A model generated the notes under the pieces. It ran no database searches. It was not told the origin of the DNA and saw only the letters and a program-made list of their open reading frames with translations. A program made the position numbers and the translations under genes. DNA of 64,000 nucleotides from Paralichthys olivaceus (Eukaryota; Chordata; Actinopteri; Pleuronectiformes; Paralichthyidae), in the NCBI RefSeq assembly GCF_024713975.1, contig NC_091098.1, positions 15,920,316 to 15,984,315 of the forward strand, in the 5' to 3' direction. Every line of letters starts with the position of its first letter. The first letter of the stretch is position 1. Shown piece after piece: positions 2,802 through 62,400 of this stretch.

Positions 2802-3548
2802 ATGTCATGTCCGAATAACATAGCTCCCGGTAACTTCCTGATGGATTCCTTAATGGGAGGATCATCTTCCTTCAGGGGTGAGGGTTACTCCAGCAGCCCC
2901 GGAATGTACATCCACTCAGCCGCAGAGTACGGATATTCAGTGATGAGAAACATTGGCAAGATTGGACCATCTCCACTCTCCAAAAGAGACGAGGCTCCTC
3001 CGGGCGCCCTGGCGCTCAGCGGCTTCCAGGATGGGCCCTACCTGTCAGCCCAGCTGGCCACATGGACCCCAGCCTCCAAAAGCAGCAGGGACGAACAACC
3101 TGTTGCCCAGTGTTTACAACCCTGCTCGTTTCCAGCGGGTAACGTCAAAGAGGAGGCGTTTTGTTGCCTCTATCAGGATGACAGCAATAAGGGGAAACAG
3201 ACAACAGAGTCGGCCACTTACATCCGGCTCGGGGACAATAGCTGCCGGCCTCAGCAAACTGCCGCCTCGTCCAGCGGCTGTTTCCAGGTGTACAGCGGAG
3301 GGAGGCCGCAGCAGGACGACCAGCAGCATTTCCCCCCCGGCTTCTCCCTGACACACTTGGCGACATCTGTTGAATCAGCACCAGCATCGACAATCAGCTG
3401 CAGCAAAGCGGCGCAGGAGGCAGCGAGAGAGGCTTCAGAGACAGAGGAGAGTCAGAGCAGGAAGGAAGAGAAGGCCAAGAGTGACAGCTGTTCAGATAAC
3501 TCGGACGGGGAATTAAAAGGTAGATTACTACTACTACTACTACTATAC

Positions 3549-3603
<55 letters not shown>

Positions 3604-3752
3604 ACACACACAGAGATACACTCTCTCACACTCACTCTCACACTCTCACACACTCACACACACTTGTTCATGCACACAAACTCATGCACACAAATAATTT
3701 GTTCACCAAAATATTGTATAATGGATGCATTGATTCTGTCAGTGGTGTTGTT

Positions 3753-3800
<48 letters not shown>

Positions 3801-5846
3801 TGTGTGCATGTGAGTGTGTGCGCGTGCGCGTTGTGTGTCACGGTCCCATAATGCGGACTGGTGTTTGATAGCAGTCATATGGGGTTGTATGAGCATTTGA
3901 CAGCCTCGCCTAGCAGGGGTTATGGTGCCCGTGGTATTTAACACCTTTCCATTAATGTGAGAATGTGAGATGGGCAGTTATCATTGAAATAAACACGCTC
4001 TCTCTCTCTCTCTCTTTCAGACACACACACACACACACTCCTTCTCACTTTCTGTTCCTCCACTCTCTCTCTTACATGGATCATATTCATTTGACGGAAC
4101 CATTTTTAACAGCACAATTTTGCGCCTTAAATTTCTTGTACCGAGCCAATATAACAAAATAGTATGGTATCAGCGGCTGAAAACATTTTGCTCTGGCTTA
4201 ATAATTTAAAAACCTTTTACACGTTTCTCATGCATGATATCTCAGAAATCATCACAAATACACGTTTCTGCGTCGATGAAGCGATAATACACAATCATTC
4301 CAGCCCAGTTTTTGCAGCATAATAATTTAGAATAAAACTGCACGTCTGAGCACACGTGTCTTTTCCTTTACCTCATTTTAAAAGTGGCAGATTGAAAATA
4401 ACAAACTAAATTTGTGGGGGTTTTTTGGACAAAACTACAAATGTGTATAACTGTTATTAGATTTCTATTATTATCAAAATATGTGATCAGTCGATTTAAA
4501 CGCTCGTAATAATATCGATGATTATCATAACTATATCATATGATAGTTTGCCCATAATAAATTGACGATAGCTACAATTATGTTATTGCACATCCCTTTG
4601 ACTCTTTTTCTTTTGCTCCGGTTTAAACCTGGGATCGGTTTGTTGTGTTATTTATGGGTTTGGCTAAAAGCTCCATACATGATGACCAACAAGATCCTTT
4701 TTAATTTCCTTTAATTTAATTGGAAGATGTACCAAAGGCAACGGGAGCGACTTTTTGAATATGTTTATGTGTGTGTGTGTGTGTGTGTCCCCTTAATCCC
4801 ATATTAGTGAATTAAACGTTTTGACAATGATTAAATGTGGGCCACTAATTCAGTGTTCACATTAGGGTAATTATTACTGTAACCTGCGTGTTGTGCGCGT
4901 GTGTTTGTGTGTGTGTGCGCGTGTGTGTGTTTGTGTGTGTGTGTGTCTTTGTCTTTGCAAAAGAGGCGTTATCCCCCAGAGTCCACAAGCTAATCAAGGA
5001 ATTAACAGAATGTGCAGCAGTGTGATTTTTTTCCTTCTCTATCACACACATGTCTTGTGCCTTTGTCCCTGTTATGTTTATATCATTATTATTGGTAGTA
5101 GTAATCTTGTATTATGCTACAGAGACTTCCTAATGTTTTGGGATGAACCTCCAACATTTTTTCATTTGGCACTCGTGTGCAGAAGTAATAAATTTTTTAT
5201 GGGAGTCTGAGGTCCAACAAGACAAAAGAAGTGCTTACACACCCTAGTTTGATTTGATCTAATTATAGCCATACGTCATACAAAAGCAATTTGCGAGCAG
5301 TAGGAGTTGTAGCTTAAGGTGGGATGTTTTGTGTCGTTCATTTGATCAAGGCAGTCACGGAGGGTCCGGATCTGGGTGAATCTGTTTTTTTATTCACTTT
5401 GTTGCTGCTGGACGGTCTTCAGCGTGCGTTTGAGAAATGTGTGTGTACATGTAGCAGCATCCATTGTATTGATTGTGTCATGAAGCTGCATGTGATCCCT
5501 GCACAAATTCTCCAGACTGCTGCAGTTTGACCATGGTTGTAATTTCTCTTTGTTTTTCTCTGGTGCAGATGATTTATCTGCGGAGAAGACGATGGGGAGC
5601 TGGTTGAAAGCCAAAAGTGGACGGAAGAAGCGGTGTCCCTACACAAAGCACCAGACGCTGGAGCTGGAGAAGGAGTTCTTGTTCAACATGTATCTGTCTC
5701 GGGAGCGCCGCCTGGAGATCAGCCGGAGTATCAACCTGACCGACAGACAGGTCAAGATCTGGTTCCAGAACAGACGCATGAAGCTCAAGAAGCTGAACAG
5801 GGAGAGTCGCGAAAGGGGGCAGGGTGCAGTTTACAGCTACTCGTGA
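2802..5846 (+). CDS. hoxc10a: Hoxc10a homeodomain transcription factor; exons 2802-3519 and 5569-5846
   Basis: Abd-B-class (group 10) Hox protein, nuclear DNA-binding regulator of posterior axial and fin patterning. Two exons join to 331 residues. Exon 1 ends in codon phase 1 at an AAAAG|gtagat donor (3520); exon 2 follows a ggtgcag acceptor (5568). The N-terminus MSCPNN, a PLSKRDE motif near residue 60 and the [10 protein letters not shown]-type stretch near 140 point to HoxC10 rather than HoxA10 or HoxD10. The homeodomain is about 257-316, with the group-10 [21 protein letters not shown] helix 1 region, WFQNRRMK in helix 3 and the PBX-contact tryptophan at W251. The start is the ATG at 2802; the frame stays open upstream without an ATG. 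The tail after the homeodomain is unusual: [12 protein letters not shown] replaces the usual group-10 ending. The 2.05 kb intron carries long C, CA and TG tracts. A poly(A) signal AATAAA lies at 6335. mir-196a lies 1.6 kb downstream. Confidence 0.96.
3550..3613. repeat. Poly-C tract of about 40 nt running into (CA)n
   Basis: In the hoxc10a intron, 30 bases after the donor, a CTA triplet run is followed by about 40 consecutive C and then CA dinucleotides. Such tracts are length-unstable and error-prone in sequencing, so the exact length should not be trusted. Confidence 0.95.
3757..3792. repeat. (TG)n microsatellite in hoxc10a intron
   Basis: An uninterrupted run of TG dinucleotides, followed by further interrupted TG and CG-containing repeats to about 3830. 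It could pair with the CA tract at 3590-3613 in the same intron. Confidence 0.95.
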
Positions 5847-7420
5847 GGAGATATTTACGCACACACACATCTACATCTACACACACACACGCACACACAC
5901 ACACACACACAGAAACACACACAGAAACACACACAGAGACATAACACAAATATGACGCATGACACAAATACAGACATGCATGTGTCATTCATCAATTATC
6001 AATTTTCTCTTTATCTGGTACACACACCACAAACACACCTTCCTAAATTAATGATGGAACTCCTCATCCTGCAGTCTATAGACTTTGGTTTCCAGGTGAA
6101 CAGCAGCATGAGGACGGCGATGTGCTGTTACCTGGTGATTACATCAATAACACAACATTAACAAACCAAACAAAAGGAGGAGACGCTCTCCAGCAGTGTA
6201 TAAACAACTAAGCAGCATCACTCTGCTGAGCTTTAATGAATGTTGTGCCACTTCTCGTGCAGCTTCCTCCCCCGCTGTGCAGTGTGCATGCACAAGATGA
6301 TATCAAGCTATGTCATGGCACACGATTCCAAAACAATAAAAGGAGGGGAAAACGGAAAGGTTTTATACCAACTTTGTCCTTCCCCTGATGGCATAGTGGT
6401 GGGAATGAGAGGGAGGGAGAGACACTGCGGATGAGAGAAGGAGATCAGGGCAGTTTTAATAGAAGTGAGAGACCATAACGTTGATTTAAATATTATCCAG
6501 GTGACCACAGTAAGTCAAGGTCATAAAATTCTAATGTCAGGTTCGCCCTGGAAAGCGTTGGGGGAGGATTTTATGATCTGCAAATATAATGTGCTGCAGC
6601 AGTAAAAGATGCGTTTAAAGGTGTGTGTGGAGGAGGGCTAATCCACACAGTAGAGACTGCACTGTGTGCAGGATCCAGCCGAGTCGCCGGGGCTGGCAGG
6701 AGCAGCCACCCTCCTCCTGCCCGGGATAATGGGAGCTGCACGGGAGCATGAAGATAAGAAAGATGGTGGATAAAAGGGACCGCGATGGCTGCAGGGACAA
6801 TAACAACAACAACAACACGCATCACGGCAAACACGTGGATAACTAAACGCGGCAGGAAGGCGTCTGTGGGAGGCGAGTGAAGGTAGGACTCATATTTCAT
6901 GAATATTTCCACGTCCTGTGCTGGAAACTGTGCCACATCTGTCAGGGAAGCCTGCTTGACAGCTCCAGTGGCACGCACGGTGCATGCCTGCTCACGTTGA
7001 TAACTCACATGAAGTTGCTGATATTAATAAGCTGCTGCTGATTTCTTTTGTGTTTATTCCATTGTGCTGGTCTAATATTGTTGGCATTGTGTTTCTGGGT
7101 ACATACTCTGATTTAATTATTTTAACGATTGCATATATGAAACAGCTGAGTACACGTTGTGCTGTGCAGCTACATTATATCCATGCTGTTACAACTATAG
7201 GATATAAAAGCTGACACGTATCTTTATGAGTTAACTCTTTAACACGTGCATTGCTATCTAGGCGGTGTTATTGAGAAAGTAGCCTGGCTGCAGCCTGGTG
7301 TGTTTTTTTATTGTGCTGGTACTCGCCTTTCCTCTTTGTGCTGGATAGTGTTAATCCTCACTTGGCTTTGTGCATGCATGCTTTGTCCTTGTCCGTGGAT
7401 TCTAACCCCCTTTTCTGCGC
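5847..7420. other. hoxc10a 3' UTR and hoxc10a-mir-196a spacer
   Basis: CA-rich simple repeat follows the stop codon (about 5859-5938). An AATAAA at 6335-6340 is a reasonable poly(A) signal, which would give a 3' UTR of about 0.5 kb. No second gene is seen before mir-196a. Confidence 0.6.
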
Positions 7421-7514
7421 GAAGCTGAAGCGTGGTTTAGGTAGTTTCATGTTGTTGGGGTTGGCTTCCTGGCTCGGCAACAAGAAACTGCCTTGATTAC
7501 GTCAGTTCGTCTTC
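7421..7514 (+). ncRNA. mir196a: mir-196a microRNA precursor
   Basis: The mature 5p arm at 7438-7459 is a full match to the miR-196a sequence as I know it (seed AGGTAGT). The 3p arm at 7475-7496 matches the known star strand in all but its last bases. The two arms fold on each other around a loop of about 15 nt, and the flanking stem (GAAGCTGAAG on the left, CGTCTTC on the right) also pairs. The location between group 10 and group 9 Hox genes is the conserved one; the human HOXC counterpart is mir-196a-2. miR-196 represses Hox messages by cleavage or translational block. Candidate sites in this window lie in the hoxc8a and hoxc6a 3' UTRs. Confidence 0.97.
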
Positions 7515-10500
7515 ATCAAGGGCACAATTTCCGCTGAATTACCCCCTATAGTCACACAGGTTGCCCCCGCAAATGGCATTGTAAATGAACTGAGCTGCAA
7601 TATCTTCGGACAGAGACGTTTTCTTTCTTTGGCTGTTGTTTTGTGGCGGGCTGTAAAACCTCCCGAAGCTCTCAGAGGGAGAATAGGTTGTAAACAACAT
7701 GGGGTAAAGTTTTAGACTGCGTTGTGCTGCATCTGTCATCACTGGCTGTCTGCTTGGGTTTAATGGTTTCAGCTGCTTTATGATCTGATATATGGATGGA
7801 TGGATGGATTGATAGATGGATGGATGGATGCATGGGTGGATATTTGGCTCTTATTTGTTTATCTTGCAAATGAAGCAGGTATATAAATTGATGCGTATTG
7901 ACATTCCCATGATCCCATGTGAGCACTCTTTGTTCTTGTGTCTGTTCATCCACGGCTCAGACATGTGTCTTTTTCCTCTCTTAATTTTTGTAATATTTCA
8001 TGACAAGCAGGAACTTAATAATAAAATATCTGACAGTATACGATGTCAAATTATTTACAAATTTGACAGTTAATGCTTTAATGGCCGCATTCATTCGATT
8101 ATAAATCAAATTTTGTTAATTCAGACCAGATTTTTTTTTGTCCCGTGGAATTTCTAAAATTATTATTTTGTGCATTCATTAGTGTAACTAGGCTACTTTA
8201 TTCCATATTTTCATTGTCCTTAATCGTGTACATCCCTGTGTCAGAAGTTTTGTTGCTCGAGATAAAGATACTTGCGTTTACACACAACCATTATTTTATA
8301 AAATAATTTCACTTTATAAAACGAAAATAATTTGTTCGAAATTAGACTCCAGTAGCATCAGTATTGAACTTTTTTATTTTCTGTAGCACTGAAATATTGA
8401 AATGATTTAGCAAACATGGGATGTAATATATCACATACACACATTTACCATCATGAGTAGACTAACTTTATTTTTCTTTTTGCCTTAAACCAAACAGTTT
8501 GGTTATTGACAACATGAATCAATAGCAATGTACAAGCAGAGGTTAAATAAGGTCACAGAGGAAAACAGAAATCTTCAGGACAGCTTATCGAGAAGAAACA
8601 ATCATTTATTCATGGAGAGTCTGCTCCTGTGGCGTAGTCAGCAGCTTTTTTCTTGCAAGGGAGACTAGTGTTTATACTGGTCACTATTTCCCCTTGTTTC
8701 CTCAGCCCCCTGCTCCCTTTGGCGGTGGTGCAACTGGAAGAGACAGTCTGGAATCCAAAGTCACTTTCATTCAGCTGCAGTGAATGAGTGTCTCCCTTGG
8801 AATGCATCACTGACAAAGACTTTACAGCGCTGGAAACAGCCCCGAACCCTGCACAGATTCACCCTAAAACCATATACACATAAAGCAATTTATTTCACTT
8901 TGTAGTGGCGCACAGGAACTGAGGGCTTCACACAGACACCTCTTTAGGACAGCTGAGGATGTGTTACTGCCATGGCATGATCAGACACGAAGCAACTATG
9001 CTAACCTCTTTTCTTTTTCGCCTTTTCTGCCCTTTTTTTGTAGGTTAAATTAGATTTTGGTTTTGAGATGTAAAGTAATATGTTTAGTATTTGGACAATT
9101 TTACAATAATTAGTAAATGATTCGGTTGAGAAGACAAAGGACAGTAACTTTATTTCAATGGAAAATGTTCAGATATTCCTTCGTATTTTTATTTTGAGCA
9201 TTTTCAGCGAAATTGAACTAAAGTGCGTTTTTTAAATTGAGTGACAATTGGGCTAATAATTAGGAATGATTTCCTATTTTAATGGTGTGGAATTAGAAAT
9301 TAAAGCTGCATTAAGAAAGAACAAAATCCATGCTAAAACTGATGATCTGATCAATATTACACGACGATTACTCTTATCATATCTGGTATGATGTATTATC
9401 TTTATTGATTAGCAATAGATCCCACAATGTGTTATTCTGTAAAACATGGGAATTAGATTTGAGGTGTTTAGACTGAAAACGTTGATTTCGATGGAGCATT
9501 ATTCTCTAATTAAGACGCGTATCTGGCTTCTCTGTTTCTGTGCTGCGGGTATTTGTGGTGGTGTCTGTTCCGCACATGGGGACTTTTATAAATAGCTTCT
9601 GATATTCACTTTGAATTTTTCCATATGCAGAGCTTGTGTGCGGATAATATGATCCAAATGTTGACTATAGATAAAGCACCAATTGGTTTACACTGCGACG
9701 TGCGAGTGTGGGGGATGGCAATATTTACAGTGCTTAGGTCTATATGTTGTGATTTAACCACTGTTACCAGAAGAATCATTTGAAATGGTCATTTATATCC
9801 GTCCACCCTGAGGTGAAGCAAACTGGTTATTCTGATGGAAGTGAAAGCAAACAAAGTCCACACTGAATTGACACTGGAATGTATATTTTACATGAACATA
9901 CACAGGAGATAATTGTGTCTTGATACGCCCATGTGGTTTGTGATTATAAGGAAATAAATGCACAATATTCTGTCGTAATCTGCAATTCAATCTTTTTAAA
10001 ATAATTAATATTTAAACTGCCGTTTGAATATTTGCCTTGTTATTTAAATCGCAACCGTTTCATGATGTGTAGTGAAGCTGCTTGGTCAGTATGTAACTTT
10101 TATTCACGTTATAACCTTTCAAAGCTGGATTTAGGCAAAACATGCATTCTTTTTTTAAGGGGTTTGTAGATATTGGATTTAAGGCGTTGGTCCTCAAATA
10201 GTTATTTCAAACAGTAACAGTATACACCCAAACTGTGACTCAGCGTCAGGCTTTTTTCTCCACTTGCCATGTAAAGACTCAAAACTCCTAATAAATGTCC
10301 TGTTTAACCAAAACCACTCTGTCCACGTCAGTTTGGCGTTACTTGCACAGGCACAGCTATCTCACTCGTATTTGCTCTGATGTTATGAATGGAAACTTGA
10401 TCGTGTGATAGAGAAATGTCAGACACGGGCTCATATGGTCGTATCAGTTTCAAGTATTGACGTTATCACGACCAAATTTACATACTTAAGGTATATGGGC

Positions 10501-43986: not shown

Positions 43987-44075
43987 AGTTGTCTATATGT
44001 ACCCTGTAGAACCGAATTTGTGTGAAGTACAAACAATCGCAAATACGTCTCTACAGGAATACATGGGCAACTGAA
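43987..44075 (+). ncRNA. mir10b: mir-10b microRNA precursor
   Basis: The 5p arm at 44000-44022 is a full match to miR-10b as I know it (seed ACCCTGT, with AACCGAA in the middle, distinguishing it from miR-10a's ATCCGAA). The 3' side at about 44040-44061 pairs with it: CTGTAGA with TCTACAG, ATTTG with CAAAT, and the outer stem ATGTA with TACAT. The place between group 5 and group 4 Hox genes on the coding strand is the conserved site of mir-10. The predicted 3p strand differs from the one in mammalian mir-10b, so its exact ends are uncertain. A miR-10 seed match is present behind hoxc4a. Confidence 0.95.
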
Positions 44076-48154: not shown

Positions 48155-48830
48155 TTAATTTATTTGAAGCTCAATTAAAATGATGTTTTTTATGAAAAAA
48201 AATGTTTTGAATGAAGGAAAAAAAAGTAGAAAAAATTTACACTTTATCGAAATGTTATTGTGGGCCGTTCTTTTGCCCTGCTGCCCAAGGTGAAATGCAC
48301 AATCTATTTATTTCAAGCAACACTGGAAGGAAATCAATATAATAATAGTTATTTTTGGTATATAAAAAAAGGCTGGAAACACACCATTGATCTTGAACTT
48401 GTATGTTTAGGATGATAACAGTGTGTGAATTACCTCGTGTATTTCAGAAACAGGAACCTGATTTGCAATTTTTAGTTATGTGGTGTTGATGTTGTGTTTA
48501 GACCGTTATCAAGCAGATTATTGTGAAATGCAATAAACGGAGTTTTAGTGTTTCTTGTGCTAATCATATTGGTCAATAAAACAGTGAGTGTCTACTAGTT
48601 TTACATACGTTTGGTCGAACTTCATTTTTGAGGCAGGGTGAGGTCTGGAAGCATTTTGTTTTGGGCTGTTTGGATCAGTCATTTCGGTCTTTAAAGGTGT
48701 ACAGACTTACTGGAACATTATCACGAGGGAAACGAGAATCACTGCTTTTCAAACTGTGTTTTTATCAAACCAGCATCTGCATTTTTTTGCCTCTTTGAAT
48801 TTGCAATGTGTACAAACATTGTGTGTATGT

Positions 48831-48844
48831 TTGTGTGTGTTTGT

Positions 48845-48918
<74 letters not shown>
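48831..48918. repeat. Long (TG)n microsatellite
   Basis: About 67 uninterrupted bases of TG after some imperfect units; one of the longest dinucleotide runs in the window, 300 bases beyond the hoxc4a poly(A) signal. Confidence 0.95.
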
Positions 48919-48920
<2 letters not shown>

Positions 48921-49097
48921 AAGCCTAAATCATAATGGACTTGAGTTCTTTCTACAAAACAAAAACAACCTCTGAAAAATGAAATAGTTTGCGCTGTGCA
49001 TTATGTGCAACCTCATCAGTCTGAAGGGCATTCAATTACCGCTAAAGACGAGCCACTGAGGCCCTTCACTCCACACTGCCTCAGCTCTGCCACAGCC

Positions 49098-49130
49098 ACG
49101 AGGGAAGAAGCTCCCTGCTTCTTCCCTCGT
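49098..49130. repeat. Perfect 13-bp inverted repeat, 7-nt loop
   Basis: ACGAGGGAAGAAG (49098-49110) and its exact reverse complement (49118-49130) flank CTCCCTG. The arms are purine- and pyrimidine-only apart from the outer bases. No following T run suggests a terminator role, and none is expected here. Confidence 0.85.
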
Positions 49131-50607
49131 CCACAACTTGAACACACAAATAAAAAAAGCTGCATGCAAATAATCTAGACGACCTTTGCAAATGTGTTAG
49201 AGATTTTTAAGATTGTTGTGAACATATTCTTATCCATTTTGTAACCTATATAATTGACCTGGTTTTTCTATAATCCAGTGCGCCATACTTGCCACTGAGT
49301 TTTCAAATGTAAAAAAAAACAATGATAGAAAATTAAATAAAATCTAAATAAAATCGTGAATTGCAGATAGATTTCGACATGATGGTCTTCGTTGAATATG
49401 AGAGTGAGGATGGGGATGGAGTCGAGTATGGCTGACCTTTGTTAGCCTCAGGGTGCTGCTTGTGAGCAGCAGTGTTTACGTTATTATTTCTAACTATTTT
49501 TATATTTCGCTTGTATAAACATTTTTTTTTGTGCCATATTTAAATGTTGCACCCCCACCCCCACCGCCCTCTCCCCCTCCCTCCCCACAGAGGCCACATT
49601 GCCTCCTGTGCGCAGCAGCTCGCGAGAACGCAAGAAACGTACAATTAAAAAAAAAAGAAAAGCGCAAAACGCATCTCTGTGCAACGTCATCGTCCGCTTC
49701 TCGTCTGGCAGACGGACTAACAGCGCACCACAGGGCTGTTTACCACTGTATAGACCTGCTGCTGGACTCACACAACTAAAATAAGACAAAAATACCACCC
49801 AAACATGAGCCCACCCCTCCTCCTCAACTCAAGGTTTTTATTTTCTAACACTGATGCGTTCTATTTCTTTTTCTATTTGGAGACGGATTCTCAGTTTAAA
49901 CATGACTGAAACCCAAAGACGCGCAAGAATTTGATAGATTATTGAAATGGTGACATGAATAGGCCTTATATAAAATGCCTGGCGTGGTGGGGGGGCACAG
50001 GGAGCACAAAAGGAAGAGGTATTCTCCATCATCAATCTTTCACTGCACAGCTTTGTGCCGCGTTCTGGAAAAAAAAAACAGCTCAGACAACAGCCAGTTT
50101 TGATCCAACACAAATATTATGTACCAGGCTGTGTGCTTCTCATAGCACCAGCATTCTTAACCTTGAGATCTGAGCTGGACCACGTCTACTGGACCTTACA
50201 GCGGGTAGAATCTGCTGTCTTTTGGGGGGATGTGGTCTTTTGGAGAGGCGTTAGAATGGTGATGAGACGGCGCTGAGAAATGAATCCAGGAGCCTTTATG
50301 TTGCCGGACAGATTAGAGAAATTAATGTGCTCGCCACAGTCGCAGCATCCCTCCAGCCCCTTTTCGAGGCCCTGTCGCCTCCATGTCGCGAGGCTGAAAA
50401 GCTACTTTATTGAAGTTTTGGGGGGCGAGTGGGAGAAGGCCGAGTTCAGCTCGAGGACACATTTTCTGTCCCATTAGGCTCATTTCAGTCTGGATGGTCG
50501 ACCCCTCCAACCCTGTGACCTGACTCCCTGCTCTGTACGTGTACCTTCTGTGTGCGCCCTCGCTGGTCCCCCTTGGCCGCGAATTTCTTTCTTTGTTGAT
50601 ATTTTTG

Positions 50608-50859
50608 GGACATCACTGAATGTGTTGCACCCTTTGTCATCACAGTTGACCCAGGACAGTGTCGAACTCTGGGACAGTCCTCTGCTCGGCGTCTTGTAAA
50701 TCAACAGGATTTATCGTAATAATAACTATTAGAAAAAATGTAACTCCTTTAATTTGAGCATGTTGCATGGATTTTTTTGGTAGGACATCACTGAATGATT
50801 TGCACCCTTAGTCATCACAGTTGACCCAGGACAGTGTTGAACTCTGGGACAGTCCTCTG
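50608..50859. repeat. 77-bp direct repeat, two copies 175 bp apart
   Basis: Copies at 50608-50684 and 50783-50859 are the same length with about four mismatches, beginning GGACATCACTGAATG and ending GGGACAGTCCTCTG. The sequence between them is unrelated. Confidence 0.9.
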
Positions 50860-50895
50860 GAGAACTTTAGGACTCATTAAAAACAAGTTTTGAAT

Positions 50896-50986
50896 GTCAG
50901 GATTTACAGCTAAAGGCCCAAATGAATGCATGCTCCTGCAAAAGTCAGGACAAATTGACAACGTGTCTTTTTACTTACTCATGAAG
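50896..50986. repeat. Dispersed repeat, copy 1
   Basis: This segment, starting GTCAGGATTTACAG and ending CTCATGAAG, shares ordered blocks with 54221-54367: GGCCCAAAT, TGCAAAAGTCAGG, AAATTGACAA and GTCTTTTT. Nature of the element unknown. Confidence 0.75.
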
Positions 50987-53154
50987 AAAATTCTAGCCCC
51001 ATATAATAATCCTCTATAATAATAATAATATAGATTGTATTTCTTAAATTAGATCTGCAAGCAAAGTGCTGCAGATTTGTGGTAACTTTAACTGGAGCTA
51101 ATGCATTGACAGGAGAAATACACGTGGTTGTAATATTCTGAGTGATTGTGCAAGATGAATATAAATCTGATTCCCAAGTTTGTGCAGGGAAACAAGAGAA
51201 ATATTGAATTGCACTGTCGTTTTTCAAAATATCTTAAAAAACTGTTGCATTCCCTAAACTCTCCCAAAACAGAAGGCAGTAAAAATAGTTTTGTGCCGTC
51301 ACGTGACTTAAGAGAATAACTGGTCTCAGGTCAGCACTTGCATTTTAAAAGTCAGCTGCCAGTTGTAGATGTGTGTGTGTCTGACAGAACTGGGTCAACT
51401 GGTCATTGTAATTAGTTTATGAACAGACAAGGACCTTCAACTTGCAAGCTCTCGAAAGCTCGTCAAGGTTTTATTTTTATCCAGATGCTAATGGTCTTCC
51501 TCAGAGGAAACAGAATTTAACCTGCATACTCTTTTCTGCTTTTTTGCTTTACAAGTTAACATTTACTGCAAAATACTCCCAAAAATCTTTAAATAAAATG
51601 ATAACAAAATAAAAATCAAATGTCAGGAATGTTGACAACCCCTGAGATATTGCTTAGCTGGTGAAGCCAATGCATCATTGTTCTTGTGTTTATTTGGATA
51701 ATCTTACTTGGTGTTCTCATTGCAAGCAGCCGGGAATTTATTCTAATATTCTTATTTCCATTTTCACTATAAGCAACAAGTCTGGTGTGTGTGTGTGTGG
51801 CCTGGAGCAAATGTTCAGCAGTGATGGAACAATATTAGACAGCATGTCCTCCAACATAAACAGTTGGCACCAAGAGCCAAACATCCAATCCCAGTGTCTG
51901 TCGTGTGTGTGTATGTGATCATTTATCCTCCTTCTCGTGTGTGTGTGTTGTGTGTGGTTATACAGATGCATCTTTTATTACACACCGCGATGTCCTTCTT
52001 TTGTTTTGAGCTCTTGTAATTTAACATCTACATGAGGAATATATTATTATTCTTTTCTTTTCATGACTTTTTGTTGACTTTGCTTTGCCAAGGACGAAAC
52101 TTTTACGCGCAGCCGTGTGTTGGATTTATGATGGGGACAAACAAAACGTGTGGTTTTAGAATTATTTTTCAAACAAAAGCTCACGTTGTCGTGTCAGTCA
52201 TAAATCAGTCTAACCTCCGCTTTTGTGTTATTACACTTTGCGGAAACTTTTCTAAACATGGGTATTTATCATGGGATAGAAACCTACATTATAAACTTTA
52301 CGCGTTTACTTTTCTGCTCTCATTGTCTAATATATGCGTGAACTTTGATAGTCTTACCTGTCAGAAGAAGGAATTAAAAAACAAACATAATATCCTTGAA
52401 TAACAGCTTCATGTTTTTTTTCTCGTACAGTTTGAAATAAAAGATTTGAATGCTCCTCCAGCTGTTTGGCTTCAGCCTGCTCTTTCCCCTTGAGTTTGGA
52501 GCAGTTTGGCTGTTATTGTAAGAATTCAGTGTATTTTACGCGCTTCGGACTCAGTGTTTAAATTCCTCAGCACTTACTCAGCTCTTACTGGTTTCTTCTC
52601 TGACTTGACACTGTTGAATCACACATGATTTTCAGCTCACATTGCACCGCTGCAGGCTACTCGTGATTTATGAGCGCACCTCAGGCGAGGGCTCTCTCTC
52701 TCTCTTTCCCTCCCTCTCCCTCTGTGTAGATATAAAAACTTTACACAAACAGCCATCGAAATGTATGAAACAGAAATGATCAGCTGTTCTGGTGCAGGCT
52801 CTGGTTTATTACCTGCTTTTATTTCTTTATTTTTCTCCTTGTGCGTCGGGGTAAGTGCACATGTGTTTGTTTTTCCTCTCTCCTCTGCACTCGTCTCAGG
52901 TGAGTGTCTTCTTCAGCCACTTTGCTTTGTAATGAAAGGCCCGGGCCCGGTGTATTGTTATCGTGTAGTGTGTTTAAACGGCAGCCATGGCAGCTGCATA
53001 AAGGCTGAGAGTTGAAACAGGGGTCACGCTGCTATTTTCCAGGGACAGACACTCTCTCGCATTGACCAGCAGTGGGTGTGTCATAAATCCGTAAATCTCT
53101 CTCCCATCCGTTCACTCGAGGGAGCAGATGCACCATGTCTTTTCTTTGTGTGTG

Positions 53155-53191
<37 letters not shown>
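53155..53191. repeat. (CT)n(GT)n compound microsatellite
   Basis: About 20 bases of CT followed by about 17 of GT. Confidence 0.9.
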
Positions 53192-54220
53192 CTTTTTTGT
53201 GCATGTGTGAGTGTGTGTATAGGAGAGAGAGGCAAATACATTTACATAAAACTAGATTTTAAAACTCCATCAGACATGTTAAAATGATTTACTGTCAGGG
53301 CTGGAAAACATTTAAAAAGCAGAAGGGGGGGGGGACACGCACGCAGCATCATCTCGGGGATTCACACTCTTGATGTCCCACGTCACTCACACACACACAG
53401 ACGCACGCACACACTCATGGGGGATGATGGTGTCCTGGGTAAACTTGCCAGTTAATACTTTATGTCATCATAACGCCTCGGTGAGGAATATTTCATTCGC
53501 CTATTTGCTGCATCGTTGAGGACCTTCGAAATTACAGTCATTTTCCTCCCGTTCAAGGTGTCACCGGGGGCCCAGTCACTGCACTGAGTTATGATTATGT
53601 TATTCACTTTTCATTAGCAAAAATGATCTGAATATGGCTCGCCGAGACTATAGATCGACAATTATGTGTAGGTTAAGTGAAAACGCGCGTTTCATTTGAT
53701 TTGCTCCCCCTGAAAATGATCCACTGATGTATTTGTGTGGCCACCAGTTGCATGATACCACAGTTCATCTTTATGCTCAGAGCATCAGGGCTTGTTTTTG
53801 TTCACGTCCTCGCAAATTGCACGCGTGCAATTCAAAAAGCTGGATTCATGTCAGATGTAATCAAAACCTAAAAACTGCCAAAATTCAAAATACAGAATTT
53901 AGATCTGCTCAATGAATTGACAAGACTGCAGCCATAAAAGTTTGTTTACGTCAGTAAAACAGCACTTTCATTCACATAACTGAGGAACAAGCAGATTGGA
54001 TTTAAATTGTCAATATTTTTCCACATCCTTAGATTTTACACGAGAAAACAGCTACATATTTCTTTTGTAGCTGTGTTTTAATGTGAGTCAATCCGTATTG
54101 AAAATTAGGTTTTATCTGAATGGATTCTTTTATATATATATACATTCAAATGTTAGACTTTGAGTAACTTCACTGGCTCAGAGTTGCAGGATTAATACCT
54201 TTCATGCACTTCATCCACAG

Positions 54221-54367
54221 GTCAGGATTTACAGTGGTGCACACACACACACACACACACACGCCAGCAGCAGCTATAGGCCCAAATTATAATGCACATA
54301 CTTATGCAAAAGTCAGGTGCTGTTTGGGGGAAATTGACAATGTGTGTCTTTTTCCTCACTTATGAAG
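54221..54367. repeat. Dispersed repeat, copy 2, with internal (AC)n
   Basis: Same ordered blocks as 50896-50986, but with an (AC)n expansion at 54239-54262 and small insertions. Same orientation as copy 1. Confidence 0.75.
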
Positions 54368-55003
54368 TGCAGTCTGCAAACTCTAGTCCTTTCATTTCAC
54401 TCTGCATTGTTTACAGCAATATAGGGCACCGGGCCCATAAATCTTCCGCTTGCTCTGCCAAGACAGCGCCATTTGTATGCACCGTTTTAACCGACAGCAT
54501 CCTCTGCCCATTAACGTCTTCTCCCCAGCTCCCTCTCTCAGTCTCCCCTTATCTGCTGCGCTCTGTCCCCTTGGAAATACATTAACTGATCCGTGCTTTG
54601 GTTTGAGCCCTGGAAACCAATTATGTTTTGTTTTTTTCGTTAGTGAAAGGGAGTTTATAATTTGTAGAAAATAAAAATATACGAAGGATCGTGCTGCGCG
54701 CTACAGAATTCTCGGCCTGTGCGCATTTGCAGACACCCCCCCATCTTGTCCTCTTTCTTCTCTCGTTCTCTGCAGGCGAACTTATTGCTGTGAAAAATAA
54801 AAAGTTTATCGACAGTTTCCTCGGCTGCTTGTGTCAGCGGGCGAGAGAGGGAGCGCAGAAGGTGTAAGGAGGAATTGTAAAAGGGTTGACACCCAGAGCG
54901 ACCGGCGCGCTTTTGTGCGAGAGAGAAAAATGATTTATTGCCACCGAGGCGGTTCAAACAGAGTTCACGGAGAATTGTGGTGGAGGCGCGGAGGAGCTAA
55001 ATT

Positions 55004-55071
55004 ATGGTCTTGCTGAGCCAGTATATCATAGATCCTATCTCCAATTCAGAGAGTGTGTTCAAGGGTGTGAG
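55004..55071 (+). other. Candidate hoxc3a upstream exon end (possibly coding)
   Basis: An ATG at 55004 opens 22 codons (MVLLSQYIIDPISNSESVFK and two or three more) that run straight to GTGAG|gtaagg, a good donor at 55072. Candidate acceptors with pyrimidine tracts are at 56988 and 57052. No join to the in-frame start of hoxc3a is possible without meeting a stop, because TGA at 57350 is in frame before 57362, so it is more likely a leader exon. I do not recognise the peptide. Confidence 0.25.
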
Positions 55072-57361
55072 GTAAGGAAAACAAAACGAATTTAATTACT
55101 TTCCCCCATTTCAGCGCTGCGTCCTGATCCATGCTGCCCAATCCACCTGTTTCTATCAATAATCACAATAATAACAAGGAGAGGAGCTGATAGATTTTTC
55201 TGGTGCACAGGCTGACGTCGTTATGGTTTAATTCCTATTCTATTTCACTCTGTCTCTATATAGACTGTGGAGATATTTGGCACTTTGCTATTATTTTAAT
55301 GGACAGGCTGGAAACTGGCTGCAGTCATTAGCTCCTTCTCAGCCTCTGATTAAAATTAAAATTTAATCAATAATAATTACAGGAAAATCAAGACACTTTT
55401 ATCCTGATTGTAGCTGCCAATAAGCCTTACTCTAATTGTAACTGTATTGAAATCAATGAACTGTAAAAATAAAATATGCAGCCTGTTTAAATTGAATTAA
55501 ATAGAAAAGCAAGTGTATTCAGGTTCAGGTAAAGGCTCAGTTTTGGAGGCAGCAGCAGTAGGGGGAAGACTCCTCTCCTTCCATGCTATGCAACCCTGAG
55601 TGCATAATCCATCACCTCTGAGAGACGTTTAAAGAGGCTTTTCTCGACAGCTTTGTTGTAGTGAAACACGAGAAAGAACTTAAATCTAAAGCCATGGTTC
55701 AACTATGATGGATACAGGAAACAGAATATGCTAACACCGTAGCCTGCGCATCCCCTCTCTCATTCTGGGCGAGGATGCTTTTGGCTGCTATTTAGAAAAA
55801 AATGTTTTGATCACTTCATCGTTCTAGTTGAGGATCCAATTTGCATACATTAGTGTATTTTTTTAATTAAGCAACTTTTAATGAGAGTTCTCCACCTCAG
55901 TGTGACTTAATTGGGCCACATTTGATTCAGATTTTAGCCCAAATAATTTCCCCTTAAAATATTTATTGCAGAGGTTTTTAATGAGTTTGCAGTATTTACA
56001 TTTTATTTAAATACTTTGCAGCTTCATTGCTTTATTTCCCAGTTGCATTGGTGCACTTTGTAAATGCAAACAGACGCACATAGAGCAGCTCTGCTCAACA
56101 TCTCCTCCTCCTCCTCTTTGTCCATGCAGCCGAGCAGCAGGCGGGATGTTTACCATCAGAACATGTGCAGTGTTTGACTGTTGCCTCTCACTGCCACACA
56201 CACGGGGACACTTGATACTGTACAGTGATGCCTGATTAATGCAAACGCGTCGAATCGTCCTATAGAAAAGAAAAATTCTCTAATGATTTCCTCCTTTGTC
56301 TTTGTGTGGCAATGACTGTCAAGCCTTTGTTTGACCACTCCCAGTGATTCCTATTAAAGCTGCACACTTCCACACCGACAGTTATGAGCATCTGCTCGTA
56401 TTTGTAGGAAAATCCCGCCTATTTATAATGAGTTGCTAAATTTGTTGCGAATAAAGCTATTAAAAAAATAATCGGAATTAATTATTTTACAGGCAGAAAT
56501 CGACCTTAGAGAAGATATCAAAAGAAAAGCCATAGCTGCAGCATGACTACAAAATCAACTATTAATAATTCTATTCAAATTACGCGTAAATACGTAGGGA
56601 CACAGTTCATTCGATTATTTAGTCTGCATTGCACATCTGGAAAGCTTCAGTAAAATAATGACATGTGGTCGATATAATTATCCAGAGTGGATGAGACGCA
56701 GCAGCAGCAGTCTGCGGGTCGAGCTCGTCGCGTTGCTCTTGAATAAAAAAACCTACCAACGCGCACAGAGGACTGAGTGGATGTGCAGCTGCAGGCGGCG
56801 GCTCCGTCTAATAAACGCTTCCTGTCAAAAGATTTACAATATTACAAGAAAATCAACAGCGAGACGTTTCTCACCACACATGTAATCTCTGTCTGCCTCC
56901 CCCCTGCTCCTCCTCCCTGCCATCCCCCCTTTTCTCTCTCTCTATCTCCATACTAAACCCCTCTTCTTTCTTTCTCCTTTCTATACAGGTGTTGGCATCT
57001 ATTCATTCATATTCCGTTGTGTGATTTTTATTTTCCTCCTCAATCCCTACAGGTGCAGAAACGCAGGCAGCTCGTGGAAATGTTGTCTGAAGCTTCTTCT
57101 TCTTCGAGCGCCCCAAATTGCAAGCGGATTACTTTGCAACTCCAGAGCTCTGTCATTGGAGGAGGAGGCCACACGTGACCACAGCACCCGTCTGGTAAAT
57201 ATTATTCAAATATTCCACATGGTTACTCCAAGTTCTTCCCTGCATGGATTTACACAGTCAGGTTAATTGTGATGGGATATTAGACAGAGAGAACCCCCTT
57301 GTCTTTTACTGCTGCTGAGGGATTCCTGGTTTTATTTGAGACAGTTTGATGAGCTGGCTCC

Positions 57362-59489
57362 ATGGACCCCCAACAGCCCACCACCCTCCCACTGCAGCTG
57401 CATGGCAACAGTTTTGCTATGAGCTCTGGACAAATGCCAGTGCCAGAGTACAATGGCGGAGGCGGTGGAGGCCAAGACGCAGAACTTAATCAGCAAAACA
57501 TGACCTCCTCCGTTCATGTCAGTTCCAGGTTGAGCCCAGATGAACAGTTTCAGAGCCCACTGGAGCCCCCGGTTCACTGCCATGCCAAGGGCAAGCTGGA
57601 CATCAAGAGCAGGAGCTGCACTCTACTCACCATCTGCCGCTCCGGAGTAATTTTTCCCTGGATGAATCCACGGACAACTGACTCTGATCAATCTGGTAAC
57701 TCTGCCCTTATTTATTACCGAGTATCTCTCACTTTTTGAACTGAGTGAGCAGAATGTTGACTGGTGGGGTAACGCCATAAAACTGTTCCTCATTTGAGCC
57801 TTGAATAACTCAAACTATATCTGACCTTCATCAAGTAACTTTTTGTTACACGACAACACTGAACCATTTCATACTGAACAACTACATTCGCTAACAGACC
57901 AGTAATATGTTTAATGTGTCACCTGCATAATTTTTAATGCACATTCACGTGAAGGCTTGCTCTCTCTTCTTAGATTAAAATAGTCCAGTGTATGAATGAG
58001 CGTTAATGTTGCAGCACTGTAAAACAAATGTGTGTGTCATGCTCTCAGCTGTTTGTTTTTCCACTCCTGCAGGCAAAGTGGAAACAGAAAGGCTTCAGTC
58101 AGTGAGCTGCACAAAAACATCATGAACAGGGTTTTATTATGAATTATTACATCTGAATCAGTAAACATCCCTTTGTGTTCATAAGTCATGAAATAATAAG
58201 TCAAATCAAAAGTCAAATCTGTCCAAATACATTTATTCAAAGGGGGAAAATCCCATGGTGTCCATTAAATATACAACAAGAAAAAAAAGACAGCTGCAGA
58301 ATAATTTTAGAATAAATAAAACACAAATATTCACTAATCGTTTATCTTCATTTTCACAGTGATGCTGCAAACAAGCCTGTAACAGGGAAGCTGCAGCCTC
58401 TCAGTCTGGTGGAGGATTGTTAAGCACTGCAGTTTACTCTCTGAGGTCACTCCAGGCCTTATTAAGTATCCATTAACCCCTGTATGTTATATTGTTATTA
58501 ACAGGCCCCTGCTATCGCTGATATACATGTCAAATGGAATCTCTAATGGTGGTTATTTTCAGTGGTATGGTCCCATGGTACCTTTTAAGTGACTGAGATG
58601 GGGATTTGACAGGCCTGCTTCCGTGTGTAGCTGTGATTAATGTGGCCTGTCAGGCAGCCGTAGTGGCGTCAGATGTTTCCCCCAGACTGTTTCTTCGGGT
58701 GGTAACTTTCCCTGAACACATGACACAGTAGACAGCCAGTCTTGTACAGTGTCTCAAGCATGAGTGAATACACAGGAAGGGCTGAGGGCCCTATGGTCTC
58801 AGGTTGATTGGTTGAGGATTAACGTGGTCCTTATTGGCACATGAAGTCCTCCACGTGGGGGGTTATGCATCTCAGGTCAGACTTGTCAGATATGTGGCAG
58901 CTGCTTTTAACACCCTCTTTATGTGCTTCCTCCAGCAGTAGTCGGCGGCGGTGTGGCTCCTGGTCCACCACACAGAGGCAGACCTGGCCTGAGGAAGGAG
59001 AGAACGGCCTTCACTAACAGCCAGCTGGTGGAGCTGGAGAAGGAGTTCCACTTCAACCCTTACCTGCGTCGTTCCCGGAGGCTGGAGATGGCCGCCGGGC
59101 TGCAGCTCACCGATCGCCAAGTCAAGATCTGGTTTCAGAACCGCAGGATGAAGTACAAGAAGGAGTGCAAGTATGGAAAGATGTTGGGTGTGTCCCAGCG
59201 GTCTCCCTGCCGCCCTTCCTCCAGCTCCAGCTCGTGTGCAGATCAGCAGAGGTTCCCTGGTGCATGTGCCGTCAGAACGTCCTCTTCCTCAGACCTGCAC
59301 TTCATGGATTATGCTCCTGTGTCCTCCTCCCTCATTGTCTCTCACAGTGACGGCAGCAGCGGTCAGTGTGTTCACCCGGCAGACCCTCCCCATCTGAGTT
59401 GTATATTTCCATCTGTTGCAAATGGTCTACCACTCTCCTGTATGGCCGTCGATAGCCTTCACCATGCTGGCATTTCAAACTGGCCCTAG
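57362..59489 (+). CDS. hoxc3a: Hoxc3a, divergent group 3 Hox protein; exons 57362-57695 and 58936-59489
   Basis: Homeodomain protein of 295 residues (294 with the alternative acceptor). Group 3 is supported by [12 protein letters not shown] in helix 1, EMA in helix 2 and RRMKYKK in helix 3; the homeodomain is about 130-189, with Q179 and N180 at the DNA-contact positions 50 and 51. The hexapeptide IFPWM is at 97-101, near the end of exon 1, as in Hox3. Exon 1 ends in phase 1 at TCTG|gtaact (57696). The acceptor is a tandem cagcag, so exon 2 may begin at 58936 or 58939. The usual Hox3 N-terminal YYDNS-type motif is absent; the ATG at 57362 is preceded by an in-frame TGA. The C-terminal region (about 105 residues, Ser- and Cys-rich) is much shorter than in Hoxa3/b3/d3 and lacks their conserved ending. 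The gene follows hoxc4a in position and orientation. AATAAA at 60081 is a likely poly(A) signal. Mammals have lost this gene; zebrafish retains it. Confidence 0.9.
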
Positions 59490-62400
59490 GGCCCCATAAT
59501 GGCTGTCCCTCCTGTGCTCATCAAAATCTCAATGATACGTCCACTTTCACTTAGTTATGAAAGACTGGAGGACGTGTGATTAGCGTTGCCAGGCTGAAAT
59601 CCCTTCAACACACCCAGTCATGAAGCATTTTAATTAAACTCTGCGGACATATCTTAATTAAAGGAGAACTACAGTGATACCATCCGTGTTTCTCAGGCAC
59701 TGTGAGAGACGACTGCAGCTCTTCAAACCTGCGTCTCATTTTGCATGTACATTGCATGCACAAGACATTTAAGGAATCAGTAGTTATATGTTTTTCTGGA
59801 TGTTACATTTGTATTGTTTTGCATGTGGAACTTATACTATGAGCGAGCTTTATACTTCCCTGTTTGAAGATAATAGTTAAGTGTTTGTCATATATTTTTT
59901 AGTGCCTCTGGTTCATTATTTATGCTGTAAATAGTATTTGTGTAAAAATGTTTTAACTGTGAAACGGACAGAGTAATGTTCCTATTGAATGATGTTATAT
60001 TTTTGTTAAAGCCATTAAAGGATGTGGAAGTCTTTGATACTATTCTTGATTAATTGAGATGTCACGAACTGTACATGCTTAATAAATGCATTTGGGAAAA
60101 TATTGTTTACGCTGTTCATCGCTAATTAAAACATTTTTTTTTCTCCTGCACTATTTCATAATTAAGAAATTCCTGGATTCGGCCTGAACGGTGAAAAAAT
60201 AAAAGAGAGAAAGACTGTGTAATTAAATGACAGCATGCTTTAGATTCATTGAAAACTCAATAGTATTGTGCATTCATGTTGCACAGTCTTGCCACATAAG
60301 CCTCTCCCTCTCCTGCCTCTGAGTTCCCCACCATTAATCACAGAGACAAGGCAGTCTTTCCAGCACTCCAACCACAAGCTCTGAACCCACTGGGCACCAT
60401 GACAAGATCTCCTGCCTCCTCCTCCCCAGCCCCTGCCTTTTCAATAGCCAAATTGTAGTGCTGCAAGTCGGGGCTGGCCTTGCTCTCAGGGGGCATGTTA
60501 GTTGTGTAGGTTAAAAGCCCTTCCAGCAGCCCATAGGCTACAACAGACCAGTGAGGTTCAATTACTTACGACAACATATTATCTTAAAGAACAATGTGGA
60601 CACTCTGAGTGAATGATTCTGTGTCTTTGTGACACGTGGATTCTTAAGTTATGAACCCTGTAGTGGAAATGTTATTTTCCTATTTCCCTATTTTGATTTG
60701 AACATTTTCAACTCACTGAGCTAAATTACCCACTTGGGGATTCATGCATTTATTTGACAGAAGTAGGTCACAGGTTCTCTTGGGTCTCAACAGTTTTACA
60801 CATCAAATAAAGACAGCCGCTTTCATGATGAAGGAGCAAACCCTCTCACTGCCACAGTATCAATATTCTCAGCAAAGTTTGGGACATGCTGACAGTTTTA
60901 TATCAGTGGCCTTACTGTAAATGAGTTGTCGCAGAGGACCACTGACAGCCCTGAAATGAGGGAGGTAAGGAGGAAGCAGATCCCCCTCGTGATCCTGGAT
61001 AGAACCATTTCCTGCTCCTAATTCATGACCTAATCAGTCTCTGGATCAGCTGTCCTTTAGTAAATATTTGACACCATTTGCAGCAGGTCTCGGATAGTGT
61101 CAGGGGAGCGATATAGCTGCTATAACTCTGTGGAAATGTTAAATAAAATAAAGTGAGGTCCTCACCACATCTGTATCACAGAGGTGGTGACAGTCAAGTA
61201 ATTTAAGAGAAACGCAATAAAGGGCAAGAGAGAGGGAGAGAATGAACCGAAGTGAGGAAAAGTTTTTCTCCTCCAGATATGTTTGCTCAGAGAGAGAGAG
61301 ATAGAGAGAGGGGGCTGTGAGGAAGAAGGACCAGACAGTGCTGGATTCCTGAGATTCTTGCATACGCCGGGTGATTTATGGTGTTAATGGTGCAGAGGCT
61401 CAATAGGACCTTTACCTCTGGTTCCTCACCACATTCTCCCTCCAGACACTAAAAGCCAAGAGGATCCACACACTGTCGTGCAGTAATTCTGTGGACGAGG
61501 TCAAGGGGGGTCCCCAGGGGTCAAGGAAAGCCCCCCCCCTCCTCTAAGGGCCCCACTGCAAGGGGAAGAGTCTTCTTCCATTTCAACACTGTTCGCCATT
61601 TGTTCTCACACTATGTTGCTTCCAGTTTGGCAACTAAAGTCATCATTTCCCTTTTACTGTTCTTTAGAGGGTACGATCTGCAAAGCCCCAAAATCCTCAC
61701 ATCTTTCTTTTTATATTCCGAGCTTTGATCAGACCTGAGCGATGCATTAAGTGGATCTTTGAAGTGATGAATGACGCCAGCCGTGGTGCCATGAAACCAG
61801 CTTTGGTTACGGTCCATCATTAATTTCAAACATTTTTGCGTTTTTGTCCTTTACAGTGACGGATGCTCCACTGTCCCATTTGCAGCTGTTGTGAAGCTGA
61901 GTTTTGAGGTTGGATTTGAATAATGTTCCATGCATCGGGACGTTTCTTAAGCTGCCGTGAAAACAAAACTGCTGTGTGCTTTAAAAGAGACGTGCAGCTT
62001 TAAGCGACTTCCAAAACATTTGCCCCTGTGTTCAACAAATGTGAAGCCCGAAGCTCTTCATATTACCATCTCAGTAATCTGCTGGTGTCTGCTGAAGTCT
62101 CATGTTATGTTGTGTTATTCCTTTTCATTTTATGGGGATCACCATCGGAGGAAATGAAGGGTAATAATGATAATAAATGTCTTTGTGACAGACCCTGCTC
62201 TTTTTCGGACTGTTTGACTGGTTGTTGGTTGGAGAAGTCTGAGGCCTCGAGACCATCAGTGCTTCAACAGATTGTTTGTGCGGTTTCTGTTTGGTTTTGA
62301 TTTTCATCCACTGTTTTTGTTTTTACATCTTCCACCACAAACCACACATGCACTTATTTATTCCACAAATGAATGCAAATGACTGACACTCTTCACCACT

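Follow-up and report, generated by a model that had tools for sequence, protein, structure and literature searches.

The 64,000 nucleotides of Paralichthys olivaceus DNA that we analysed (contig NC_091098.1; hereafter, the window) contain, at positions 57362-59489 on the + strand, an intact hoxc3a gene with two coding exons. The gene has kept its hexapeptide, its homeodomain core and its splice structure, and the N-terminal motif and the DUF4074 tail of Hox3 proteins are not there. Very probably, this is a teleost hoxc3a that remains intact and keeps its core, that experiences weakened purifying selection beside its Hox3 paralogues, and that is on a path to loss. Nothing of a new kind is seen here, but a known gene whose copy seems to be drifting; both the gene and its patchy loss had been described before.

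The joined frame (57362-57695 plus 58936-59489) has 888 coding bases and encodes 295 amino acids, without internal stops or frameshifts. Based on frame and splice scores, the first coding exon (57362..57695, +) runs from the start codon at 57362 (GGCTCCATGG) to a phase-1 donor, and splice scores delimit the phase-1 intron that follows (57696..58935, +). The second coding exon (58936..59489, +) includes the stop codon at 59487-59489, and starts at a tandem CAGCAG acceptor, so that position 58939 is equally in frame and would give 294 amino acids, one residue less. When scored with position weights, the acceptor at 58936 ranks 29th among the 3750 AG sites scored in the window, and the donor at 57695 ranks 98th among 3860 GT sites. 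A donor after 57763 scores higher, but by then the frame has already closed, at 57739, so that this donor cannot be used. Phase 1 is also the phase of the best-scoring intron in hoxa3a, hoxb3a, hoxd3a, hoxb3b and hoxc1a. By themselves, the open frames are modest evidence for a gene: the frame stayed open in 142 of 5000 Markov resamples of exon 1 and in 26 of 5000 of exon 2. That the gene is real is settled by a Pfam homeodomain match at 2e-22. Downstream, an AATAAA read from the letters (60081..60086, +) is a possible polyadenylation signal.

The window contains seven Hox homeoboxes, all on the + strand, which we take to be those of hoxc10a, hoxc9a, hoxc8a, hoxc6a, hoxc5a, hoxc4a and hoxc3a; here and in the other clusters, the gene names were assigned by residues and order. 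The gene under study has hoxc4a on its 5' side; on its 3' side, some 15 kb further on and beyond the window, comes a hoxc1a homeobox. This is the place of teleost hoxc3a in the HoxCa cluster. Between 59490 and the window end, the search for a hoxc1a remnant gave a best E value of only 0.55; hoxc1a sits outside the window. Some 5-10 kb past the window end (positions 2228-7773 of the fetched stretch L014), we observed two pieces of hoxc1a, the hexapeptide TFEWM and a complete homeodomain, which are read in open frames of separate, unjoined exons. The HoxCa cluster of the window also contains a mir-196 precursor at 7429-7503 and a mir-10 precursor at 43993-44067, both of which are in locations that are usual for these microRNAs within a Hox cluster.

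The homeodomain family search of the animal's own genome (588 Mb, 25 contigs, the window being in contig C6) scored 150 of 442 candidates, so that further Hox genes may exist; the comparisons below use the window and 18 + 3 fetched stretches, chosen for groups 1-6. Four other Hox3 genes were read: hoxa3a, hoxb3a, hoxd3a and hoxb3b. Three of them (hoxa3a, hoxb3a and hoxd3a) are canonical, with a start of the form MQK.TYYD and a DUF4074 tail (E 3.8e-35, 8e-23 and 7.1e-35, respectively). We also observed that hoxb3b (7436-9341 of the fetched stretch L013) is partly eroded: its N-terminus is shortened and starts MEMQK, it ends APKLTHL, and it has no DUF4074 match.

Two elements of hoxc3a are typical of a working Hox protein. 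Firstly, the hexapeptide, which is the Pbx-binding motif, reads IFPWM in the hoxc3a frame (57650..57664, +). This is the group 3 type: all four other Hox3 genes read have it, and in the three Hox2 genes read the motif is EYPWM or EFPWM. Secondly, the homeobox (58989..59168, +) encodes a complete 60-residue homeodomain (Pfam PF00046, 5.2e-24). The earlier view of the first-pass annotation, that hexapeptide and homeodomain are intact and the splice signals good, is thus borne out by the IFPWM, the Pfam match and the site ranks. The homeodomain residue changes that it quoted are exact, hoxa3a, hoxb3a and hoxd3a having HFNRYLCRPRR and NLLNL[TS]ERQI at these places. The homeodomain differs from that of hoxa3a at 18 of 60 residues, and at 18 or 19 from those of hoxa3a, hoxb3a and hoxd3a, whereas hoxb3a and hoxd3a each differ from hoxa3a at 1 and hoxb3b differs at 6. 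None of the 18 differences falls in the 26 columns at which 24 other Hox homeodomains of the genome all agree; with columns hit randomly, P would be 2.4e-6. Compared with only the six other homeodomains of the window, which share 32 invariant columns, hoxc3a departs at F8 and V14, and of these two V14 is the group 3 residue. Several of its replacements are ordinary residues in other family members: P24 occurs in hoxc8a, D42 and V45 in hoxc10a, and A36 in group 2. The changes in the homeodomain are therefore confined to columns at which the Hox proteins of this genome vary, and hoxc3a has the intact core expected of a functional Hox transcription factor.

This pattern bears on the possibility that hoxc3a was recently silenced, its frame still being open and its expression or constraint gone. 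In favour of this, the cited passages describe hoxc3a as a pseudogene or lost in pufferfishes, and as lost in several other fishes (PMC2080641, PMC5168715, PMC7327861). In P. olivaceus, however, the 18 homeodomain changes spare every column that is invariant among the 24 others, the coding bases are free of stops and frameshifts, and the GC3 of the homeobox is 0.87, against 0.65-0.87 in its neighbours, which makes silencing very unlikely.

The termini, on the other hand, are not those of a Hox3 protein. The N-terminal MQK..YY motif is absent from hoxc3a, and in the 106 C-terminal residues (59169..59489 with the stop, +) Pfam found no DUF4074, a domain that is present in three of the four other Hox3 C-termini read; nor do these residues resemble other Hox3 C-termini. 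Both features are usual but not essential for a Hox3 gene, since hoxb3b of the same genome also lacks the YY and DUF4074. When the hoxc3a termini were compared with those of the four other Hox3 genes (8 comparisons), 84 to 484 of 500 shuffles scored as high, while no shuffle did so in any of the 6 comparisons among hoxa3a, hoxb3a and hoxd3a. The hoxb3b termini were intermediate (13, 228 and 76 of 500 shuffles as high for the N-terminus; 10, 11 and 27 for the C-terminus). Against human HOXA3, HOXB3 and HOXD3 sequences, 59, 186 and 36 of 500 shuffles scored as high for the hoxc3a N-terminus, and 225, 498 and 322 for its C-terminus. A frameshifted remnant of a Hox3 tail was sought in the six frames of the window, with nothing better than E 1.3. 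The shuffles, the profile searches described below and the absence of DUF4074 thus confirm that hoxc3a is without the usual Hox3 N-terminal motif and C-terminal region, as had been proposed. Published primer motifs for group 3 are AYTSAQLV, RPRRVEMA and QIFPWMKE, and the primer motif given for the HoxC3 start in sarcopterygians is MQKGPYYE, with exon 1 products of 400-480 bases (primer passages of PMC3038165). Of QIFPWMKE, hoxc3a keeps only IFPWM, and neither the Q nor the KE; the stretch from its start codon through IFPWM has 303 bases.

The usual N-terminus might have been supplied by a coding exon further upstream, which would have spoken against the first-pass annotation; the sequence search of the window revealed no canonical one. 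The hoxc3a frame opens only at 57353, three codons ahead of the start codon. A scan for the Hox3 N-terminal motif over 48300-57400 gave a best score of 19, against a mean best of 20.5 and a maximum of 27 in Markov resamples (n=40); over 1-57400 the best score was 23, a figure without a resampling control. Hox3 N-terminus profiles, built from human or own-genome sequences, gave a best E value of 2.3 in the six frames of the window. Accordingly, a canonical Hox3 N-terminus in an upstream coding exon within the window was rejected, there being no motif or profile match; for hoxb3b itself, the own-genome profile gave no more than E 0.012 when it was run against two sequences, and an N-terminus eroded like that of hoxb3b would escape it. 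Splice scores do suggest a possible 5' untranslated exon (57053..57194, +), whose acceptor at 57053 ranks 11th in the window, with a paired donor after 57194 and an onward acceptor candidate at 57398. As a coding exon it was discarded: it would join at 57398 in frame, but that frame has no start codon. If the exon were joined at 57398, translation of hoxc3a could start at 57419 or later.

Assignment of the gene to a paralogue group was not decided by trees. Its homeodomain shares 42 of 60 residues with hoxa3a and hoxd3a, 41 with hoxb3a, hoxa2a and hoxb2a, 40 with hoxa1a and hoxa2b, and 39 with hoxb3b. In the own-genome tree (60 columns), hoxc3a lies on a long branch (0.47) within a set of groups 1-3 (support 100/100), and in the best tree its neighbour is group 2 (support 49/20). 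The five Hox3 genes together formed a clade in 0% of 200 bootstrap trees, yet this clade is not rejected (p 0.31); placement with group 1 is allowed as well (p 0.52), whereas the test rejects group 4 by a narrow margin (p 0.040) and group 5 without doubt (p 0.006). In the tree of human and window homeodomains, hoxc3a stands beside group 1 (support 20/0), hoxc3a and the other Hox3 genes lie on one side of a branch in 17% of 200 bootstrap trees, and the p values are 0.59 for group 3, 0.46 for group 2 and 0.051 for group 4. The Hox3 phylogeny proposed in the first-pass annotation therefore gave a divided answer, the best trees lying outside group 3 and a group 3 placement being allowed. Its broader claim of a functional-looking, strongly derived hoxc3a stands as regards the intact frame, the kept core columns and the termini unlike Hox3, but group 3 membership is not what the trees recover.

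Could the gene instead be a surviving hoxc2a? The weak union with group 2 in the best own-genome tree is in line with this, as are R2, N10, A36 and V45, which agree with group 2. Groups 2 and 3 differ in this genome at 15 columns, and there hoxc3a agrees with group 3 at 5 (V14, M34, I47, Y56 and K58), with group 2 at those 4, and with neither at 6. Among the homeodomains compared with it, V14 and M34 are confined to the four other Hox3 genes read, each of which has both, and Y56 is confined to three of the four; of the further group 3 residues, S10 and A11 are absent. Together with these residues, the IFPWM hexapeptide speaks against a hoxc2a, and the N-terminus is unlike the MN[YF]EF start of the three Hox2 genes read. 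Moreover, a Hox classifier is reported to have classified the A. burtoni proteins, by implication including HoxC3a, according to their names (PMC2246111, in its passage on classification). We consider a hoxc2a most improbable, and group 3 the best reading of the letters, because of IFPWM, V14, M34, Y56 and the map position.

Constraint was assessed by pairwise Nei-Gojobori dN/dS of homeoboxes between paralogues of the same genome, for which 60 columns are few and dS is high. Between hoxc3a and the four other Hox3 genes, dN/dS is 0.23-0.37 (dN over dS 0.217/0.85 with hoxa3a, 0.245/0.83 with hoxb3a, 0.209/0.91 with hoxd3a and 0.293/0.79 with hoxb3b), against about 0.02 in the two canonical pairs computed (0.036/1.55 for hoxa3a-hoxb3a, 0.029/1.94 for hoxa3a-hoxd3a); for hoxb3b-hoxb3a it is 0.074/0.80. 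The dN itself is 0.21-0.29 for hoxc3a and 0.03-0.04 in the canonical pairs. In Tajima-type relative-rate tests over the 60 columns, none of 12 was significant (largest chi-square 2.78); private changes were more numerous in hoxc3a in 8 of 8 tests with hoxa2a or hoxa4a as outgroup, and fewer against all 4 comparators with hoxa1a as outgroup. The relaxed constraint suspected at first is thus favoured by the higher dN and dN/dS, but not by the relative-rate tests. Judged by comparison with paralogues only, the homeobox seems to have evolved faster and yet under constraint, which would mean relaxed, not neutral, evolution.

An adaptive account, in which positive selection for a new role would have fixed the changed loop and helix 2 of the homeodomain and the new termini, would also explain why both termini are unlike those of other Hox3 proteins, not merely cut by a stop, and why the homeodomain changes avoid the invariant columns. 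It has been published that Hox homeodomains came under positive selection once clusters had duplicated, with group 3 represented by A, B and D and C3a not named in the relevant passage (PMC1636070). Such neofunctionalisation is nevertheless improbable: the pairwise homeobox dN/dS values are all below 1, and the partly eroded hoxb3b points to simple decay of the Hox3 termini where copies are redundant. It is rather unlikely, too, that hoxc3a encodes a core-only Hox3 protein with a lineage-specific role, its hexapeptide and homeodomain retained, its termini replaced by unrelated sequence, and with P24, R27, S29 and G37 shifting its preference in DNA binding or in partners.

That hoxc3 was lost in mammals and some fishes, as the first-pass annotation stated, agrees with a published record of patchy retention and loss. 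According to the passages of these reports that concern the gene, hoxc3a was described in the cichlid Astatotilapia (PMC2080641), is implied in medaka (PMC2246111), and is present in Senegalese sole and missing from P. olivaceus data, on which the authors were cautious (PMC9774920). It is given as lost in Gulf pipefish (PMC5168715), while another report has it as a pseudogene in Protosalanx and as lost in Paedocypris (PMC7327861). As to expression, it is listed among the genes that differ between stickleback spines (PMC9525239), and zebrafish neural lineages express it (PMC7886338). HoxC3 is reported as lost in mammals, birds, crocodiles and turtles, a figure legend leaving marsupials and monotremes open, and as kept in squamates, amphibians and lobe-finned fishes (PMC3038165). 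By these reports, hoxc3a of cichlid, stickleback, zebrafish and Senegalese sole occupies the same place in HoxCa, 3' of hoxc4a and 5' of hoxc1a where the latter is kept. Astatotilapia HoxC1a is stated to be 30% identical to that of zebrafish, mostly in the homeodomain (PMC2246111), so fast evolution at that cluster end is not new, and hoxc1a is reported lost in some other fishes (PMC2246111, PMC5168715). Our literature search, for which most subscription papers were outside the scope, yielded no description of terminal loss in hoxc3a, and a text search with the letters of its homeodomain matched no paper. No relatives of hoxc3a were found in viral contigs, nor in plasmids (near mode). Among genome contigs, one distant animal-type homeobox (43% identity; stretch L001, 1977-2150) was observed, in a contig that is catalogued as Endozoicomonas sp. 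YOMI1; it is perhaps host DNA in a bacterial assembly.

The reading that we prefer, that of an intact hoxc3a under weakened purifying selection, can be put in terms of redundancy. If hoxa3a, hoxb3a, hoxd3a and hoxb3b cover the group 3 functions, purifying selection on hoxc3a would be weakened, and selection on its Hox-Pbx core may have been reduced because canonical Hox3 paralogues remain. The protein would still bind sites of the Pbx-Hox type through its homeodomain and hexapeptide, would have lost whatever contacts the Hox3-specific termini make, and may be on the path that ended in gene loss in other lineages.

The paralogues of the same genome provide the scale for this erosion. Like hoxc3a, the genes hoxa3a, hoxb3a and hoxd3a have IFPWM, a phase-1 intron and RRMKYKK in the homeodomain; unlike hoxc3a, they keep MQK.TYYD and DUF4074, and differ among themselves at only 1-2 of 60 homeodomain residues. 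The hoxb3b gene resembles hoxc3a in being shortened, without a DUF4074 match and of weak N-terminal similarity, but differs from it in having MQK near its start and APKLTHL at its end, and in keeping 54 of the 60 homeodomain residues of hoxa3a. Within one genome, Hox3 erosion can thus be seen at three stages, namely canonical hoxa3a, hoxb3a and hoxd3a, partly eroded hoxb3b, and core-only hoxc3a, and this three-stage set is handy for asking which Hox3 functions require the conserved termini.
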